Assembly: GCA_008727115.1 (NCBI GenBank)
Contig: CP044131.1
Location: forward strand, 1,674,001-1,738,000
Length of the DNA stretch: 64,000 nucleotides
Source of the DNA: Comamonas testosteroni
GTDB lineage: Bacteria; Pseudomonadota; Gammaproteobacteria; Burkholderiales; Burkholderiaceae_C
Direction: 5' to 3'
Part shown: piece by piece, positions 4,969 to 64,000 of the stretch
Position numbering within the stretch: the stretch's first letter is position 1
Layout: the number at the start of each line of letters is the position of its first letter
The notes under the pieces: generated by a model
Seen by the model: only the letters and a program-made list of their open reading frames with translations
Database searches by the model: none
Told to the model about the DNA's origin: nothing
Made by a program: the position numbers and the translations under genes

Positions 4969-5235
4969 TGTAGGTCTTGCAGTCTGGGCATGGATGTAAA
5001 TATGCAGGCAAATTCGGCTGTTTGTGCCGAGGAATCGCCTTGCTTGAGCAGTGCAGTTGGGAACTTGCTGGTTTCTTCCAAAATCGTAGCGCTATACGCA
5101 GGCGCTGTCTGCCCCAAGATGCTGTTTAAAGTAAAAAATCGTCACCTGAACGGCAGATAATTTAGTTCGATCGAACGATGAAGCGGCCGACAGGCTTATT
5201 ACAATGCGCAGCTGTTGGTGCTCGAGGCTGCTCTT

Positions 5236-5424
5236 CTGCGGTCTCAGTTCAACGGGAAGCAGGGAGGAGCTGGCCAGAACACTGGCCTCTCCGAGCCTGC
5301 GCTGCCCCCGCAACGGTCGGCGAATGGAATGCCGAGCATTCCACCTTTTCCCTCATAGCCACTGGCGCTCAGCGCTGGGAAGGCTGGTAAGAGGATGATT
5401 CGCCTAGCCCGGATACCGGCCAAC
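5236..5424 (+). promoter_or_regulatory. Cobalamin (adenosylcobalamin) riboswitch
   Basis: The leader carries the class-I cobalamin aptamer landmarks in order: AACGGGAA, the invariant GCTGCCCCCGCAACGG, GCCACTGG, GGGAAGG and the B12 box AGCCCGGATACCGGCC (5405-5420). Binding of the coenzyme normally lowers expression of downstream uptake and synthesis genes. It lies 85 bases before btuB and probably governs at least btuB and perhaps the whole collinear cob locus. The rest of the 4969-5508 intergenic stretch holds only divergent promoter sequence as far as I can see. Confidence 0.9.
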
Positions 5425-5508
5425 ATGGGTGTGTCTGCATCAAGTGCAGGCACTGTTTGCTCATTGTCGGCGGGTAGGCTGGCAGGAGCGTTTTTCTGAA
5501 TTTCTCCA

Positions 5509-52414: not shown

Positions 52415-53536
52415 GGCGGATTCAAATGTGAAGTGCAACACCCTTGAATTCAATGGATGAGGGTGGAGTGCTGGGGAGAGTTGATCAGTAGCTCTCGATA
52501 AACCGACAGCGGTGATCGTACCCCAAGGCCCTTGCGAGGGCGGTTGTTGATTTCATCAGCAATCGCATCGAGTTGCTCTTGGCTGTAGATGCTCAGATCC
52601 ATGCCTTTGGGCAGGTACTGGCGCACCAAGCCATTCATGTTCTCGTTGGAGCCACGCTGCCACGGGCTGTGTGGGTCACAGAAGTACACCGCCACGCCCG
52701 TGTTGGCGGTCAATTGCTTGTGTAGCGCCATCTCCTTGCCCTGGTCGTACGTCATGCTTTGGCGCATGGGCTGCGCAATGCCCAGCAGCTTATCTGTAAA
52801 GGCTTGCATGACATTGGCTGCACTGGCTGGTTTGAACGCAGGCAACTTGACCAGCATGAGCAGTCGGCTGGTGCGCTCGACCAAGGTGCCTACGGCACTT
52901 GCATTGCCAGCACCCTTGATGAGGTCACCTTCCCAATGCCCTGGGAACTGCCGATCCTCAACTTCAGGCGGACGTACGTGGATGCTGAGCATGTCTGGGA
53001 TCTGTCCACGACGATCCTGTCCTTTGCTACGGGGCAGCCGTTTGTTGTGAGCATGGCGCAAAGTGGCAATCAATTCCTTGCGCAACTCACCCACGGGCTG
53101 GGCATAGATGCAGTTGTAGATGGTTTCGTGCGACACGCGTAGCTCATGGCCTTTGGGGTACAGGCGTGCAAGTGTCAGCGCAATTTGCTCTGGTGACCAA
53201 CGCAAACGCAAGAAATGCAATACCAAGAACCACAAGATCCCTTGTGAATGAAGCTTGGGATCAGATCTTGTGCTGCGTCTTCTGTAAAGCCACTGCTGTT
53301 GCGCTTGCCTGCTGGCATATCCATCGCTGGATACTGAGTTGCGAGCAATCTCACGGCTGACGGTGCTGGCACTGCGCCCTAGCAAACGCGCAATGCTGCG
53401 TACGCTATGACGCTGCAGCAGCAAACTGGCTATGGTGACTCTGTCTTCTGGTTGAAGTTGGCGATAGGACGAACGACTTGCTGACATCTGCTGACCTTAA
53501 CGGTTGCAGGTGTTGCACTTCACATTTGAATCCGCC
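52415..53536 (-). mobile_element. IS30-family insertion sequence
   Basis: An 1122-bp element with near-perfect terminal inverted repeats: left GGCGGATTCAAATGTGAAGT, then GCAACACC. The right end on the minus strand reads the same 28 bases. It is flanked by a GGG target duplication (52412-52414 and 53537-53539), in line with the 2-3 bp typical of this family. One transposase gene fills it. The intact ends, intact transposase and intact duplication imply a recent insertion. Confidence 0.93.
52450..53487 (-). CDS. IS30-family transposase
   Basis: A 345-residue DDE transposase. The N-terminal HTH reads LQPEDRVTIASLLLQRHSV, then RSIARLLGRSASTVSREIAR. The catalytic core has HWEGDLIKGAG (first Asp), MTYDQGKEMALHKQL (second Asp) and SPWQRGSNENMNGLVRQYLP (Glu). 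All three acids are present and the frame is unbroken, so it should be active. Encoded on the minus strand within the element at 52415-53536. Confidence 0.95.
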   Translation of the reverse strand: MSASRSSYRQLQPEDRVTIASLLLQRHSVRSIARLLGRSASTVSREIARNSVSSDGYASRQAQQQWLYRRRSTRSDPKLHSQGILWFLVLHFLRLRWSPEQIALTLARLYPKGHELRVSHETIYNCIYAQPVGELRKELIATLRHAHNKRLPRSKGQDRRGQIPDMLSIHVRPPEVEDRQFPGHWEGDLIKGAGNASAVGTLVERTSRLLMLVKLPAFKPASAANVMQAFTDKLLGIAQPMRQSMTYDQGKEMALHKQLTANTGVAVYFCDPHSPWQRGSNENMNGLVRQYLPKGMDLSIYSQEQLDAIADEINNRPRKGLGVRSPLSVYRELLINSPQHSTLIH

Positions 53537-54961: not shown

Positions 54962-55994
54962 GGCGTTGTTGCACAAATGCCGGTCGCAGCTGAGGTAGGC
55001 TCGGGAGATGAGAGAGACGAGCTGGGGTCGGGTTAAGTACCGCACAACGAACTGGAAGGCTTACAACGCAGCGTTGAAGGCGCGAGGTGAGCTGACCATT
55101 TGGCTCGATAGGGATATGCAGTGGCTAGCTCGGCCCACGGGCAAGCGTGGTCGTTGCCAGAAGTTCTCAGATGCGGCCATCCAGTTTTGCCTGACCATCA
55201 AGTGCTTGTTTGGCCAGCCCTTGCGCCAGACACTGGGCCTGGTTGAGTCGCTATTGGGTATGGCAGGCCTGCATTGGCCAGTGCCCGACTACAGCACGGT
55301 GTGTCGCAGGCAAAAGAGCTTGGATGTGCAGGTGCGCTACCGTGCAAGTGACAAAGGCTTGCACATGCTGGCCGACTCCACGGGCATCAAGTTCTTGGGC
55401 GAAGGTGAGTGGAAAACCAAAAAGCACGGTGCCGAGAGCCGCCGCCAGTGGCGCAAGGTGCATCTGGGTATTGATGCCCAGACACTGCAGATTCGGGCCA
55501 TCGCAGTAACAACCAATGAAGTGGGCGACTCGCCCATGGCAGCAGACCTGCTAGGTCAAATTCCAAGCAATGAAGAGATAGCTAGCTTTACCGGTGATGG
55601 GGCGTACGACACGCAGGATGTACATAAGGCGTGCTACCTGCGGGGAGCCATTCCAATCATCCCGCCGCGCAAAGGAGCGAAGCTGCGCAAAGGGCTGGCA
55701 TTTGCTCACCGCAATGAAGCGGTCAAGGCGTGTAGGCAGTTGGGGCGGGCTATCTGGAAACGCTGGAGCGGCTACCACCGAAGGTCACTGGTGGAGACCA
55801 AGATGAATTGCTTCAAGCGACTCGGCGAGAAGGTCATGGCCAGGACGTTTGAGCGCCAGGTGACCGAGCTGCACATCCGAGCTTCAATCCTCAATCAATT
55901 TACCGCTCTGGGCACGCCCCAGACAGTCGCTGCTGCGTAAATCTATTTGGGATTGGGGATGCCTTGGCCTATGGCCGATTTATGCAACAAAGCC
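54962..55994 (+). mobile_element. IS5-family (IS903-group) insertion sequence
   Basis: A 1033-bp element. Ends are GGCGTTGTTGCACAAAT on the left and, on the minus strand, GGCTTTGTTGCATAAAT on the right, close to IS903-type ends. A perfect 9-bp target duplication CTTGTTGAG lies at 54953-54961 and 55995-56003, as expected for the IS903 group. A single intact transposase gene reads plus. Confidence 0.93.
55008..55940 (+). CDS. IS5-family (IS903-group) transposase
   Basis: A 310-residue DDE transposase. MLADSTGIKFLGEGEWKTKK carries the first Asp. FTGDGAYDTQDVHKACYLRG has the second. RSLVETKMNCFKRLGEKVMA contains the Glu in the usual Y-(2)-R-(3)-E context (YHRRSLVE). The N-terminal WLDRDMQWLARPTGKRGRC and TLGLVESLLGMAGLHWPVPD are typical of this group. 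The frame is unbroken. Confidence 0.95.
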   Translation: MRETSWGRVKYRTTNWKAYNAALKARGELTIWLDRDMQWLARPTGKRGRCQKFSDAAIQFCLTIKCLFGQPLRQTLGLVESLLGMAGLHWPVPDYSTVCRRQKSLDVQVRYRASDKGLHMLADSTGIKFLGEGEWKTKKHGAESRRQWRKVHLGIDAQTLQIRAIAVTTNEVGDSPMAADLLGQIPSNEEIASFTGDGAYDTQDVHKACYLRGAIPIIPPRKGAKLRKGLAFAHRNEAVKACRQLGRAIWKRWSGYHRRSLVETKMNCFKRLGEKVMARTFERQVTELHIRASILNQFTALGTPQTVAAA

Positions 55995-58140: not shown

Positions 58141-58539
58141 ATGGTCAATTCCGCAAAAGATTCAAGCTTCAAAGCCTGGGAGGCTCTCAGCTTGGAATGG
58201 TCGCAAAGTGGCTTGCCGCAAAAAGAGTTTTGTGAGCAGCGCGGTATCAACTACAAGACATTTGCAAATTGGCGTAGTCGTAACAACGCTGCTGTTCGGG
58301 GTACCGCTAAGCGCTCCGTAAAAGTTGCACGCCAAGAGCCGCACCACCCACTGATCCCCCTTCAGGTGATCGAAGCGGAAGCTGGCCATCCACTACCTAA
58401 ACTACGGTCTGAAGTGAACAGTTCAGCATCTTCTCCGATCACCATCATTACGTCTTTGGGGCATCGGCTTCTGATCGAGGATGGCTTTGACGAAAAAACG
58501 TTGCTACGTGTCTTGCGAGTGCTGAAAGATGCCGCGTGA
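58141..58539 (+). CDS. tnpA: IS66-family TnpA-type accessory protein
   Basis: A 132-residue IS66 first-frame protein. KAWEALSLEWSQSGLPQKEF, then CEQRGINYKTFANWRSR matches the HTH-like IS66 TnpA start, and a variable linker ends with ITIITSLGHRLLIEDGFDEK. The role in transposition is not well understood. Its stop overlaps the tnpB start (GTGA). Confidence 0.88.
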   Translation: MVNSAKDSSFKAWEALSLEWSQSGLPQKEFCEQRGINYKTFANWRSRNNAAVRGTAKRSVKVARQEPHHPLIPLQVIEAEAGHPLPKLRSEVNSSASSPITIITSLGHRLLIEDGFDEKTLLRVLRVLKDAA

Positions 58540-58886
58540 TTGAATTCACCTCCGACAACGTTTGGTTGGCTCCTGGTGCTACTGATATGCGTAAATCCAT
58601 AGATGGCCTGGCTGCAATCGCACAGTATGTCATCAAGCAGGATCCCACGAACCAACAGATCTTCGTGTTCTGCAACCGCAGTTGCAGCAAGATAAAAATC
58701 CTTTATTGGGGTGGCAATGGTTTTTGGCTTTTGTATAAGCGCTTGGAGCGTGGGGCGTTCAGATGGCCCAAGGAAGTTGCAACCCCGATGTGTATCAGTC
58801 GTCGCCAACTCGCTTGGCTGCTAGATGGATTAGCACTTGAGCAGCGATTTGCCCATCGACCTATGGATGCAAAATATTTGAGCTGA
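58536..58886 (+). CDS. tnpB: IS66-family TnpB accessory protein
   Basis: A 116-residue IS66 Orf2 protein, complete. VWLAPGATDMRKSIDGLAAI, then IFVFCNRSCSKIKILYWGGN and GFWLLYKRLERGAFRWP are the family's signatures. It starts at GTG 58536 overlapping tnpA. Needed for transposition in characterised IS66 elements, but here tnpC is broken. Confidence 0.93.
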   Translation: MIEFTSDNVWLAPGATDMRKSIDGLAAIAQYVIKQDPTNQQIFVFCNRSCSKIKILYWGGNGFWLLYKRLERGAFRWPKEVATPMCISRRQLAWLLDGLALEQRFAHRPMDAKYLS

Positions 58887-58965
58887 GCAGATAGTGATTA
58901 GATACTTGAATTTTGTATATCAATGAAATACACTTTCCGAGCTCCGGCTTGAGACTGGAGAACAT

Positions 58966-59259
58966 GTGACATCAAACCGAACATCTTCCTCCGCCTCGCC
59001 CAATAGCCATGTCAAGATCACCAAACGCCGTATGGCTGAACATCTTGGTCTTGATGACCATCGGCTGCAGCCGTTGGATGGTGCTGCGATCAAAGCGCTG
59101 CGAGCAAAGCACAACGTTAGCCAAGCCGTTTTGGCACAAATCCTCAATGTGGGCTTGGGGGCAGTAAGGCAATGGGAGCAGGGCCTCAGAAATCCGACGG
59201 GATCAGCCTTGAAGCTGCTGCATCTGATCGAGAAGCGCGGGATCGACTTACTCCTATAG
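58966..59259 (+). CDS. XRE/HigA-type HTH protein within the IS66 element
   Basis: A 97-residue helix-turn-helix protein. IKALRAKHNVSQAVLAQILN, then VGLGAVRQWEQGLRNPTGSA and LKLLHLIEKRGIDLL are like HigA/NadS-type antitoxins that autoregulate toxin operons. No toxin frame precedes it: only 79 bases separate it from tnpB. The GTG start follows CTGGAGAACAT. It lies where IS66 elements usually have no gene, so it is a passenger, or a degraded toxin-antitoxin locus captured by the element. Overlaps the tnpC open frame by 88 bases. Confidence 0.75.
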   Translation: MTSNRTSSSASPNSHVKITKRRMAEHLGLDDHRLQPLDGAAIKALRAKHNVSQAVLAQILNVGLGAVRQWEQGLRNPTGSALKLLHLIEKRGIDLLL

Positions 59260-60419
59260 ATCTGGAAGTAAGTCAGTGGGTCTTTTTTGGTGATGAACGG
59301 CGACTCCAAGAGCAACCAATCATCACAAGAGCTCCGTGGCCAGAGCTTCCAAGCTCCCAACTGAAAGCGGAGATTGAAGAACTAACGTGCCAATTTGACT
59401 TCAAGGAAGATGAGACGTTAGGGCTCGTGATTGATGCGTTTTTTCCATCAATCGACATGACCCAGAGAATCATCTTTGGGCACGAAGGCCATGTGCAGCG
59501 GCGCTTGTGCTCTCTTCTCAAACTGCAGAAAAACAAAATACAGCAGAAGGTGCACGAAGCTGCCCAGCAGGGGTTTCAACTTTCCGTGGCTCAGCAAGAA
59601 ATCCTGAAGCTGCAGGAATCAAACCGTCTGCTGGCTGAGCAGGTTGCTCGGTTCCGCCAAGAGCAGTTTGGCGCGAGTTCAGAGCAGGTTGAACCGTTGA
59701 ATTCCGACAAAGCGGTGGCCAACGACGAGGTTGAAACACCACCTATCAAAAAAACCCGGTTGGCTAGCAACGCTGGCCGTAAGCCACTGCCAGCGCACTT
59801 ACCCCGTCAAGACGTTAACTGCGACCTCGCCGAAGCTGAGCAAAAGTGCTCTGGCTGTAACCAGCCGATGAAGTTTGTAGGCGACGAATCCACTGAACGG
59901 CTGGAGCTCATCCCCGCCAAGTTGGTTGTTAAGCGCTTCATCGCTAAAAAGTATGTATGCCGATGCTGCAATAAATTTGCTGTAGCGCCCATCCCTAAAT
60001 CAGTGATCCCGGGTAGCAGCTTCGGAAGTTCGTCAGTGCTGGCAGACATCGTTGTCAATAAATACCAGTTTGCACTGCCTCTTCATCGCTTGACCCACAT
60101 GTATGACCGGGCAGGCATGCCCATCAACCGGACAACCATGGCTAATCTCATGATTAGCTTGGCTGATCGCTTGACGCCGCTCTATGAGCGCTTCCGCGAG
60201 ATATTGCTTCGCCAAGATGTGATCTATGCTGATGAGACTATTTTGCAGGTTCTCAAAGAGCTAGGCCGTACTCCTCAGTCGCAGTCCTTCATGTGGCAAT
60301 ACTGCAGTGGCTCGCATGCGGCACAGCCACTGGCCATGTTCGAATATCAGCCCACACGTGCTGGTGCTCATGCGTTGAAATTTCTAACGGCACCTGACGG
60401 CAAGGTTTTCAATGGCTAG
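59172..60419 (+). pseudogene. IS66-family TnpC transposase, internally deleted
   Basis: A 415-codon frame with the coiled coil and REQFG-like stretch (RFRQEQFGASSEQ), the zinc-binding CSGCNQPMKFVGDES ... YVCRCCNKF and the first catalytic region RQDVIYADETILQVL. It stops shortly after YQPTRAGAHALKFL. The residues expected next, including the remaining catalytic acids, are absent, and only the C-terminal end reappears in another frame at 60412. The N-terminal 95 codons, overlapping the HTH gene, do not look like IS66. ATG 59457 may be the real start. Confidence 0.85.
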
Positions 60420-60579
60420 GTCTGCGATTTTGAACAAGCTCGATCCGTACCAATACCTAGTGCAGGTACTCAACAAGCTACCGCACGCGGAGAGCGAAAA
60501 AGATTTCGAAGAAATGATGCCTTGGAATGTGAAGGCAGGGCTAGATGTTGCCGATTTGCAAGCACGCCTCGCTGCTTGA
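60412..60579 (+). pseudogene. C-terminal remnant of IS66 TnpC
   Basis: 55 codons in a different frame from the main tnpC: KLDPYQYLVQVLNKLPHAES, then EKDFEEMMPWNV, ending DLQARLAA. This is the usual end of IS66 transposases (DPYxYL ... LPW). The join at about 60412 marks an internal deletion of probably more than 100 codons. Confidence 0.8.
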
Positions 60580-60951
60580 CTACTCATAGCTTTCAGAACT
60601 GCCCAGTACGTGTAGTTGTACAGCTGCTCTGCAGCGGTTGCTGTACTTCGCTGGCGCAGTTCGTACTTACGCTGAGTGCCATCAAGCGGTCGTTCGCTCC
60701 GACGAGTTAGGAGTGCATAGCTGAGGTGCAGTTGTCGTAGGTTACGCATATACCAGCTCAGACGAGCAAAGCAAATTGCCCATCGGAGTTCTACCCCCCG
60801 GTGAAGTCCCTGTGATTGTGCAAAGCATCTTTGCCAGCGTTCACTCCAAGCAAGCGTTGTGCATGCACTGCTGCGCTAATATTGTCTCCGCTACGCCGTA
60901 AGAGCCAGAACTCGCCAGCAGGTGAGTCTTCAAGAACATCGGGGAGGTATT
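60580..60951. other. Intergenic region after the IS66 remnant
   Basis: 372 bases with no credible gene. Text resembling IS66 right-end flanks (GAGTGCCATCAAGCGGTCGT at about 60675) suggests that the element extends into it, but no inverted repeat matching the left end could be found. The final 100 bases are the likely promoter region of the large gene at 60952. Confidence 0.5.
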
Positions 60952-63900
60952 GTGGGCAGAAAGTCAAGAGAGAAGCGTGAGCGCCGACTTGCTCAGAGCA
61001 CGGGAGATCCTGATGTCCTACTCCGCCAGATGATGAACTGGCACGACCAGCTTGGCGAACGCAAACAGCTGAAAGACGCCTTCCTTGTCCAAGTGAGGCA
61101 GACCCGAACTCTCCTTAACCAGTACGACGCCTCAGACGTAGCGCTTGCGATTGGCGTTTCCGAACTCTGGCCGGCAAATGCCGGCAGCCACGTCAAACAT
61201 GCGTTCGCATGGTGCGTGTTCCTAGACGCCCCGCCCGAAGGACGTGGCGGCAAACGAATCGAGAGCTATGCGGACTTCCAAGAGTTCACCGAAGCACTTT
61301 ATGCAGTCTGGCCCCACTTTCCTACCCTTGAAGACTTCTTTCCTGAGGCGGATTGGGGACAGACCAAGGTGAGCCTCGGCGGCCGATTCGTACCGGTCTT
61401 CTACGGCAGCAGCATCGAGCGAGTCCCGGACTTCATAGAGGCCTTTCGAATCACCTACGCCGATGTGCCCAACGCCCTAGCCCAGATGGACTTAGCCGTC
61501 GCGCTACAGGCACTGATCATAGAAGCCATTCCACATCTCGCGCAGCCCCCTGTTATCGATGCGGCCCCTGGCCACGTAGAGCTTCCCTCAGAAAATTTCT
61601 GGGTCTCGTGCAGGGATGTGCTACAGAACATCGGTCAACAAAGCGCCTCCTGGCACCAGCGCGCGGGAACTTCTCTCGATGGGGTAGTCGGTGGCTACCA
61701 GGCGCCGCTAACGTGGGAATCGTTCGGCAATGCTGCATTCACTGGCGATGCCGTTCCCTTCTTGGGCGTCAATGTCGCTAGGACCTGGTACCCGATGGCG
61801 GTTCGAAGCGCCCCGGGGACAGTCATCGATCACTGGGCAAAGAAAAACATGCCAAGTATTAGCCCTCAGGTGCACCGGAGGCTAGGCCAGTTTTTCTTCG
61901 AGCGCTTTGACAATACGCTGCCTGGACCGGTGATGTTGATTCTTGGTGGCGAAACATGTAGAGAGCTCCAGATCAGCAGCGTGACCTCTGCGCCGACAGG
62001 CGTGTATCTCATTTGCGCTTGCGCTCATGAGTTGCTCGACGAACAATCGGCAGTGGCCGCCAGCATTCTAGCCAAGGCCCGGCAGACAAAGAATATTCGC
62101 TTCAAGATCGTTGGAGGCCCGGAAGTCCTGCTCTCAAAGGACGGAGTCAACGGCCCATCAGCCGACGAGCTCCACATCATCCTTGTGCCTACGCTGGCGG
62201 CCACCTCTGCAAGGCCCCTCAACCTTCCTGACGAACCGTTGCGTCTCCTGCCACTTGCGGATCTCATCACCATCATCGATAGCCTAGCGGATCTGGAGGA
62301 TCTGCAGCGTTATTGGACTTTTTGCGATGTGCAGCGCTCGGCCTTGTCTCCCTTCTCTCGGGGTCCTGCCGATCTGTTCGCTTCATTCAAGGACACCGAG
62401 GAGGTTCTTGTTGATGGCGCCGTCGAGCCCACGATGATCAGCCTTGATCCGAGTTGGGGCACCTCATGGAGGTTCAAAATGCTCGCTGAGTTCTGGTCAA
62501 GGGCTCCTCGCGTCTTTCCCGATCGAACATCTAGCTGGCTATTGCGTCCAGGGACAGATGGCGTCATCGAGATGAGTTCGCGCGGTCGCAAGGTCATCGC
62601 CTACTCCACTCTCGTCGGTGATTGCACAGTTCAAGCATTGCTGGAAATCAAGGACGACTTAGACCAAGAAGACGGACGAATGGTCGACCTGTTCATTCAA
62701 ATCCTCGCCGACAGCGCATTCCGGTGCCAAGGGCTTCTTGCCACAGCGCCACTGTTTCAACTGGACCATGTTCTGTTCGTCTGCAAGCGCAACGCGTCCA
62801 GCACCATCGTTGGCTATGACGAAGCGGGCACTGACGCAGCTAAGAATGCAGGCTCTGTTGTAGCTGCTGCCGAAGGAAGCTTCGGCAGAACTGCAGTCAT
62901 TCACCTTGATATCGATGTTCGCGCGGTGCTCTCGGGCTTGACCGACGCTACCAACGGGAGTTTCGAGGTGTGGTGCCTTGCGGAGGCGATTCGCAAGAGC
63001 CACGACGCCCTTGGCATGTCGTTGCCTGAGGGGCTGGAGGGAGCGGTTCTATCAGCGGCGGGTGAGCTCGCCCGATACACACTGCGAGTCTCCATCCGGC
63101 ACGTCGACGTTCCAGACCACCCACTAGTGATCATTTCCAGGATGTCGGACTACAAACTGGCTCGCAAGCAACTCGCTGAGATAATCCGAGACTTGGGCTT
63201 GGCACCTGGCCGATACGCGCTCTCGGAGGCCAAAGAGAAAATTGATCTGGCCTGCGTCCAGTTCAGGCTTCACATCGAAGGGCGGCTCACTCAGCTTGAC
63301 CGGCTTCAGCTGATTCGAGCTTGCATCGAACAGCACGATGCGCTTCTGGCTACCGAGCGAGGACGGATTGAAAGAGCCCGCCAGAGCCTGTCTCACGAGG
63401 TGGACTACGACCGAGTTGACGCTGTCGAAGAGGCGCGCAAGCAATACGGGACTGTAGCTCGTCACTATCGATACCTGCTGGAAAAGGCAGTCAGCAGTCA
63501 GGCCACTGGACCCGGCGAAGTCACTCCCGATGTACTGCGCGAACTGGTAGGCAAAGTTGACTGGCTCATGACGCTTGCAGGAGCCAGTGACGTCCTCCAC
63601 AACGGGGTCGATGTGGCAGGCATCACCATCGACGATTCGTTCATCCCAGATGTCTTCTACTCCGACGGTTCTAATGACCGGGAGATTCGGTTCGCGCGTG
63701 AGTACGCCAAGACACGACTTGGTCTGGGTGAAAATCGTCAGGACGTGGTCGAGGGGGAGTCGGAGGCTCTATTGGAGTCAGCTGATTTCAACCACGCTTT
63801 TGAGACCGACCTTGGATTCAACCTGTCAGACTTGCTCACGTCCCTATCCGTGTTGGCCCAAGCTCAGCACCGAGGTTTTGCCAAGGAGCCGTCACTTTCC

Positions 63901-64000
63901 TACAGCGCCAGTCCAGACGAACTGGCAGGGACGCTTGCCTCCGAGATCAAGGACATTGGACAGGAGAAGGCAGAGCGCATTGTGGCTTTCCTGACCCTTT
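60952..64000 (+). CDS. Large unrecognised protein, incomplete at the window edge
   Basis: An open frame of 1016 codons without a stop, running off the right edge. GTG 60952 follows GGGGAGGTATT, a strong ribosome site. The basic N-terminus (MGRKSREKRERRLAQ) leads into a soluble, mixed alpha/beta protein with no signal peptide or membrane segment. Aromatic-rich stretches occur at about 75-170 (AVWPHFPTLEDFFPEADWG). Two internal segments look domain-like: about 325-410 (PGPVMLILGGETCRELQ, VYLICACAHELLDE) and about 740-840, where charged helices predominate. The rest of the end (DVLHNGVDVAGITIDDS and onward) is also unfamiliar. I recognise no family and assign no function. Codon use (more CGA, AGG, CTA) differs from the chromosome to the left, consistent with acquired DNA. 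Confidence 0.85.
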   Translation, partial: MGRKSREKRERRLAQSTGDPDVLLRQMMNWHDQLGERKQLKDAFLVQVRQTRTLLNQYDASDVALAIGVSELWPANAGSHVKHAFAWCVFLDAPPEGRGGKRIESYADFQEFTEALYAVWPHFPTLEDFFPEADWGQTKVSLGGRFVPVFYGSSIERVPDFIEAFRITYADVPNALAQMDLAVALQALIIEAIPHLAQPPVIDAAPGHVELPSENFWVSCRDVLQNIGQQSASWHQRAGTSLDGVVGGYQAPLTWESFGNAAFTGDAVPFLGVNVARTWYPMAVRSAPGTVIDHWAKKNMPSISPQVHRRLGQFFFERFDNTLPGPVMLILGGETCRELQISSVTSAPTGVYLICACAHELLDEQSAVAASILAKARQTKNIRFKIVGGPEVLLSKDGVNGPSADELHIILVPTLAATSARPLNLPDEPLRLLPLADLITIIDSLADLEDLQRYWTFCDVQRSALSPFSRGPADLFASFKDTEEVLVDGAVEPTMISLDPSWGTSWRFKMLAEFWSRAPRVFPDRTSSWLLRPGTDGVIEMSSRGRKVIAYSTLVGDCTVQALLEIKDDLDQEDGRMVDLFIQILADSAFRCQGLLATAPLFQLDHVLFVCKRNASSTIVGYDEAGTDAAKNAGSVVAAAEGSFGRTAVIHLDIDVRAVLSGLTDATNGSFEVWCLAEAIRKSHDALGMSLPEGLEGAVLSAAGELARYTLRVSIRHVDVPDHPLVIISRMSDYKLARKQLAEIIRDLGLAPGRYALSEAKEKIDLACVQFRLHIEGRLTQLDRLQLIRACIEQHDALLATERGRIERARQSLSHEVDYDRVDAVEEARKQYGTVARHYRYLLEKAVSSQATGPGEVTPDVLRELVGKVDWLMTLAGASDVLHNGVDVAGITIDDSFIPDVFYSDGSNDREIRFAREYAKTRLGLGENRQDVVEGESEALLESADFNHAFETDLGFNLSDLLTSLSVLAQAQHRGFAKEPSLSYSASPDELAGTLASEIKDIGQEKAERIVAFLTL

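Follow-up and report, generated by a model that had tools for sequence, protein, structure and literature searches.

A predicted anti-phage nuclease from Comamonas testosteroni in a divergent sister clade of Upx

We analysed a 64,000-nucleotide stretch of the Comamonas testosteroni genome (the window, C1:1674001-1738000, from a source genome that is one contig of 4,136,480 bases), at the right-hand end of which lies the start of a large gene that we term upx-like. Judged from sequence comparison, its product is, with good probability, a stand-alone anti-phage nuclease from a divergent sister clade of Upx, in which the N-terminus would perform the sensing and the C-terminus would cut DNA. Upx, attributed by PMC10855318 to Gao et al. 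2020 (doi 10.1126/science.aba0372) and classed there under nucleic-acid degradation, has been found in genomic-island hotspots (PMC12629846, PMC12824646), and this setting, a mobile island with other defence genes, is common to both proteins. The upx-like clade probably represents a divergent branch overlooked by present annotation libraries, and defence catalogues that rely on the Upx models miss it. It broadens a single-gene anti-phage family, points to the conserved effector end of the protein, and provides a natural comparison for what the N-terminal part senses, which can be tested using the solved Upx structure.

Reading frame and purifying selection

Window positions 60952-64000 on the forward strand form a single open frame of 1,016 codons that is cut by the window edge; given the frame's own base composition, the chance probability of so many stop-free codons is ~1e-16. 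When the frame was followed beyond the window in the source genome, it closed after 1,266 codons, with a stop at window-equivalent 64750-64752, 750 bases outside the edge. A Shine-Dalgarno sequence, GGGGAGG (60941..60947, forward strand), lies 4 bases 5' of the GTG at 60952, and this codon is the likely start, favoured over an in-frame GTG at 60922 because the N-terminus that it predicts, (V/M)G[RK]KSREKRERR, recurs in three relatives. Comparison with an 83% relative on a metagenome-assembled (MAG) contig (JAFEER010000049.1, L004) gave a dN/dS of 0.18 overall and of 0.085 across residues 1000-1250, with the strongest purifying selection in the nuclease region. The full frame, the ribosome site, the shared N-terminus and the low dN/dS together indicate that the gene is intact and selected, in agreement with the sequence-only reading made of this DNA beforehand, which had described a very large gene, open for 1,016 codons to the window edge and with a strong ribosome site, and had proposed extending the contig.

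Database and profile searches

A Pfam scan of the upx-like protein returned no match. In NCBIfam, the single weak match was Upx (NF042954, E=4.4e-6, 24.2 bits, residues 774-1159 only); in PADLOC, it was again Upx (PDLC02221, E=2e-4); and a search of the PDB gave one weak match, the 1,272-residue 'Restriction endonuclease' 9wuf (E=0.0085). This entry is itself Upx, its aligned fragment scoring 696 bits against the Upx model and being identical to a Salmonella sequence. The earlier remark that no part of the protein could be matched to a known family holds for Pfam, but the other three libraries each yielded one weak match, always to Upx.

The match to 9wuf became stronger when the clade was used as a whole. 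A profile of the six clade members retrieved 9wuf from the PDB with E=6.2e-8, the runner-up standing at E=0.86. All six members (four scanned first, two added later) matched the Upx model of NCBIfam and no other, and the four of four that were scanned against PADLOC matched its Upx entry. When set by hhalign against an independent alignment of the Upx group (Salmonella, Sinorhizobium, Bosea and two Deinococcus sequences), the clade matched it across 735 columns (probability 99.6, E=1.5e-23), and a reverse search of 398 genomes with the Upx profile recovered the upx-like gene (E=4e-20). Homologues of the upx-like protein were not found in phages, plasmids or IMG/VR. Upx is the sole described relative in these searches.

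The upx-like protein, at 24.2 bits, falls well short of the curated NCBIfam cut-off for Upx of 1900 bits, a threshold set for close equivalogs that other Upx-group proteins fail to reach as well. Among the latter are plasmid-encoded proteins of Bosea, Sinorhizobium and Deinococcus, annotated as 'hypothetical protein', which have the same C-terminal module and score 110-482 bits against the Upx model but fall in the Upx clade, apart from the window protein. On the plasmid of Deinococcus sp. QL22 (L020:359-8305), an Avs2-like NACHT gene lies immediately before the Upx-group gene, and both are annotated as hypothetical.

Relationship to Upx

We mapped the extent of the kinship by splitting the alignments into segments and setting each hhalign result against 100 column shuffles. 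Residues 760-1095 matched Upx with E=2.8e-17 and residues 1085-1266, which hold the nuclease, with E=4e-9; in both cases, 0 of 100 shuffles scored as well. By the same profile comparison, residues 1-460 and 460-760 gave insignificant results, 7-28 of 100 shuffles being as good. These alignments make a solid case for homology to Upx across residues ~760-1215 only, comprising a helical region and a PD-(D/E)xK site. In the window, the Upx-homologous region thus begins at residue ~760 and occupies 63229..64000 (forward strand), whereas the N-terminal two thirds (residues 1-759, 60952..63228, forward strand) are conserved within the clade and show no significant match to Upx or to any library family.

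The C-terminal signature GD[FY]D-x14-ECK is invariant in six of six clade members, conforms to the catalytic PD-(D/E)xK pattern, with D1142, E1157 and K1159 as its key residues in the upx-like protein, and aligns with GDIDxL...ECK of Upx. It lies on the forward strand past the window edge, with GDFDVLAY at window-equivalent 64366 and ECKYN at 64420, as does the WEH[S/N/A]KR motif at 64060. A nuclease domain, which the sequence-only reading had named among the findings that would speak for a defence system, lies just past the point at which that reading had to stop.

In a tree of the C-terminal part, the six upx-like proteins form one clade and the Upx group another, each with a support of 100/100, with the upx-like proteins placed outside the Upx clade, as its sister, and a long stem between the two (1.92+0.88 changes per column). 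Because the clades are separate and the stem is long, the family is a sister of Upx rather than a close member. The two have much in common, as both are single proteins of close length (~1,240-1,272 residues for Upx against 1,266), in which the C-terminal helical region and the PD-(D/E)xK nuclease are collinear. They differ in their ~760 N-terminal residues, which lack recognisable similarity, in their separate clades and in score (24 bits against the 1900-bit cut-off), as well as in their motifs: the upx-like proteins have WEH[S/N/A]KR and, after the nuclease core, KD-x-[RK]R-x-RD-x-[IM]F, the counterparts in Upx being W-x-[FY]-x-RRLS and KDL-x-x-A-[RK].

Residues 1-759 are presumed to form the sensing or regulatory part. 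A short likeness between the upx-like clade (LWPxN...LEDF) and Upx (LLPEN...LEDP) occurs at the expected N-terminal place, and is suggestive only as a sign of kinship there. AlphaFold models of the two halves of the 83% relative, built from a two-row alignment, were unusable (pLDDT 35 and 32). Were the N-terminal module unrelated to that of Upx, the clade would constitute a separate single-gene defence system, one with an Upx-type effector end and its own trigger; we put this forward tentatively, as the less probable reading of the N-terminal comparison.

Carriers and their neighbours

The upx-like gene was found in 3 of 301 family genomes and in 2 of 399 order genomes, and 398 genomes of the phylum contained two full-length copies together with one weak fragment, the window's own genome being included in each count; three of three same-genus genomes searched lacked it. 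In the G004 carrier, Lamassu LmuA/LmuB, PDC-M01AB (Septu-like) and TIR genes lie nearby, with an integrase ORF in the region, and the L004 carrier, in which the gene sits within a relaxase-bearing element, also has an Avs1b-like gene. In G741 (L016:1-15155), the gene is cargo of an apparent Tn7-like element, whose TnsA, TnsB, TnsC and TniQ-like ORFs were read by eye, and its stop overlaps the ATG of a ~1,500-codon NACHT/Cap4-type protein (Avs1b/LmuA-like), which suggests that the two are a coupled pair in that genome. The G1358 copy stands alone between core genes and tRNA-Pro.

Residence within mobile elements, Tn7-like in G741 and relaxase-bearing in L004, could also be expected of a housekeeping or mobile-element nuclease concerned with DNA repair or maintenance and not with defence. 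This is very improbable given how sporadic the gene is, its presence in elements unrelated to one another and, in one case, by itself in a chromosome, and its neighbours, which are defence genes of differing kinds.

Two genes follow the upx-like gene in the source genome. Gene 2 consists of two overlapping frames at window-equivalent 64807-66520 (L002:4808-6521), is frame-disrupted and matches no library family; an intact 570-residue relative adjoins CBASS-type genes on the Pseudomonas aeruginosa plasmid pWTJH6 (L035:8365-10077), and in L004, gene 2 is internally deleted, with its two ends remaining. Beyond it, a 777-residue SEC-C protein (window-equivalent 66647-68980, L002:6648-8981) contains a D...ExK nuclease-like patch (DTLILIDDVLFLVEAKAG). 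Homologues of this protein are encoded on plasmids of Rhizobium, Aliarcobacter and Bradyrhizobium, where upx-like genes are lacking. Those of Aliarcobacter and Bradyrhizobium adjoin Lit, AbiE, AbiV or SAVED genes, and the SEC-C gene is a candidate defence gene in its own right.

The window genome and the L004 MAG agree in the order of upx-like gene, gene 2 (570 codons, disrupted) and SEC-C/PD-(D/E)xK-like gene. Such agreement would suit a multi-gene defence cassette in which the three act together, and the overlap in G741 suggests coupling there. We nevertheless consider such a cassette unlikely, as gene 2 has decayed in both genomes that share the order, none of the four more distant carriers has a close homologue of the SEC-C gene, which in other places is present where upx-like genes are missing, and G1358 has the upx-like gene alone. 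On co-occurrence and decay, gene 2 and the SEC-C gene were each rejected as an obligate partner. The repeated co-occurrence with a second gene that the sequence-only reading had asked for was thus not borne out, the two downstream genes being common to the 83% relative only, while the other carriers have different neighbours or none. Because the distant carriers differ in their neighbours, the G1358 copy is alone and the SEC-C gene occurs separately, the picture is one of a defence neighbourhood without a fixed partner. The genomic evidence for single-gene working is accordingly that no neighbour is common to all carriers and that one copy stands by itself.

Proposed mechanism

In the function that we favour, that of a stand-alone anti-phage nuclease, the large N-terminal part would recognise a phage component or an infection signal, and this recognition would release the C-terminal nuclease to cleave DNA, either that of the phage or that of the host in an abortive infection. 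A modification enzyme would not be needed. The PD-(D/E)xK-type nuclease, and the name 'Restriction endonuclease' given to 9wuf by its depositors, would suit an endonuclease of a conventional restriction-modification system, yet no methyltransferase family was found among the three downstream genes (Pfam, NCBIfam), none was apparent in the ORF lists of the relatives, and catalogues treat Upx as a single-gene system; we therefore hold this alternative to be highly unlikely. As no methyltransferase was seen, a stand-alone nuclease would have to spare host DNA by means of its trigger rather than by modification, or else the cell would be sacrificed. The initial guess of phage defence, which had been drawn from size and position, gains its support from elsewhere, namely from homology to Upx and the defence neighbours of the relatives.

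Upstream region

A non-coding leader (60420..60951) separates the upx-like gene from a truncated IS66-type transposase ORF (59172-60419), and no sigma-70 consensus promoter was found in it. The description of the region as a tRNA-linked island did not hold up: 98 kb of sequence contained no attachment repeat in the form of a further tRNA-Val end, and gene order is not kept in the same-genus complete genome G220, where 420 kb separates the flanking core genes, so that the empty-site comparison gave no clean site. The truncated ORF belongs to an IS66-type insertion sequence (58141-60419, with TnpA and TnpB) directly 5' of the upx-like gene. Further transposase ORFs are located at 52450-53487 and 55008-55940, and another, at L002:12593-14005 (on the scale on which L002:4808 is window-equivalent 64807), lies just 5' of a catalase gene. 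Far to the left, the window also contains a cobalamin riboswitch at 5199-5438 (Rfam RF00174, 81.6 bits).
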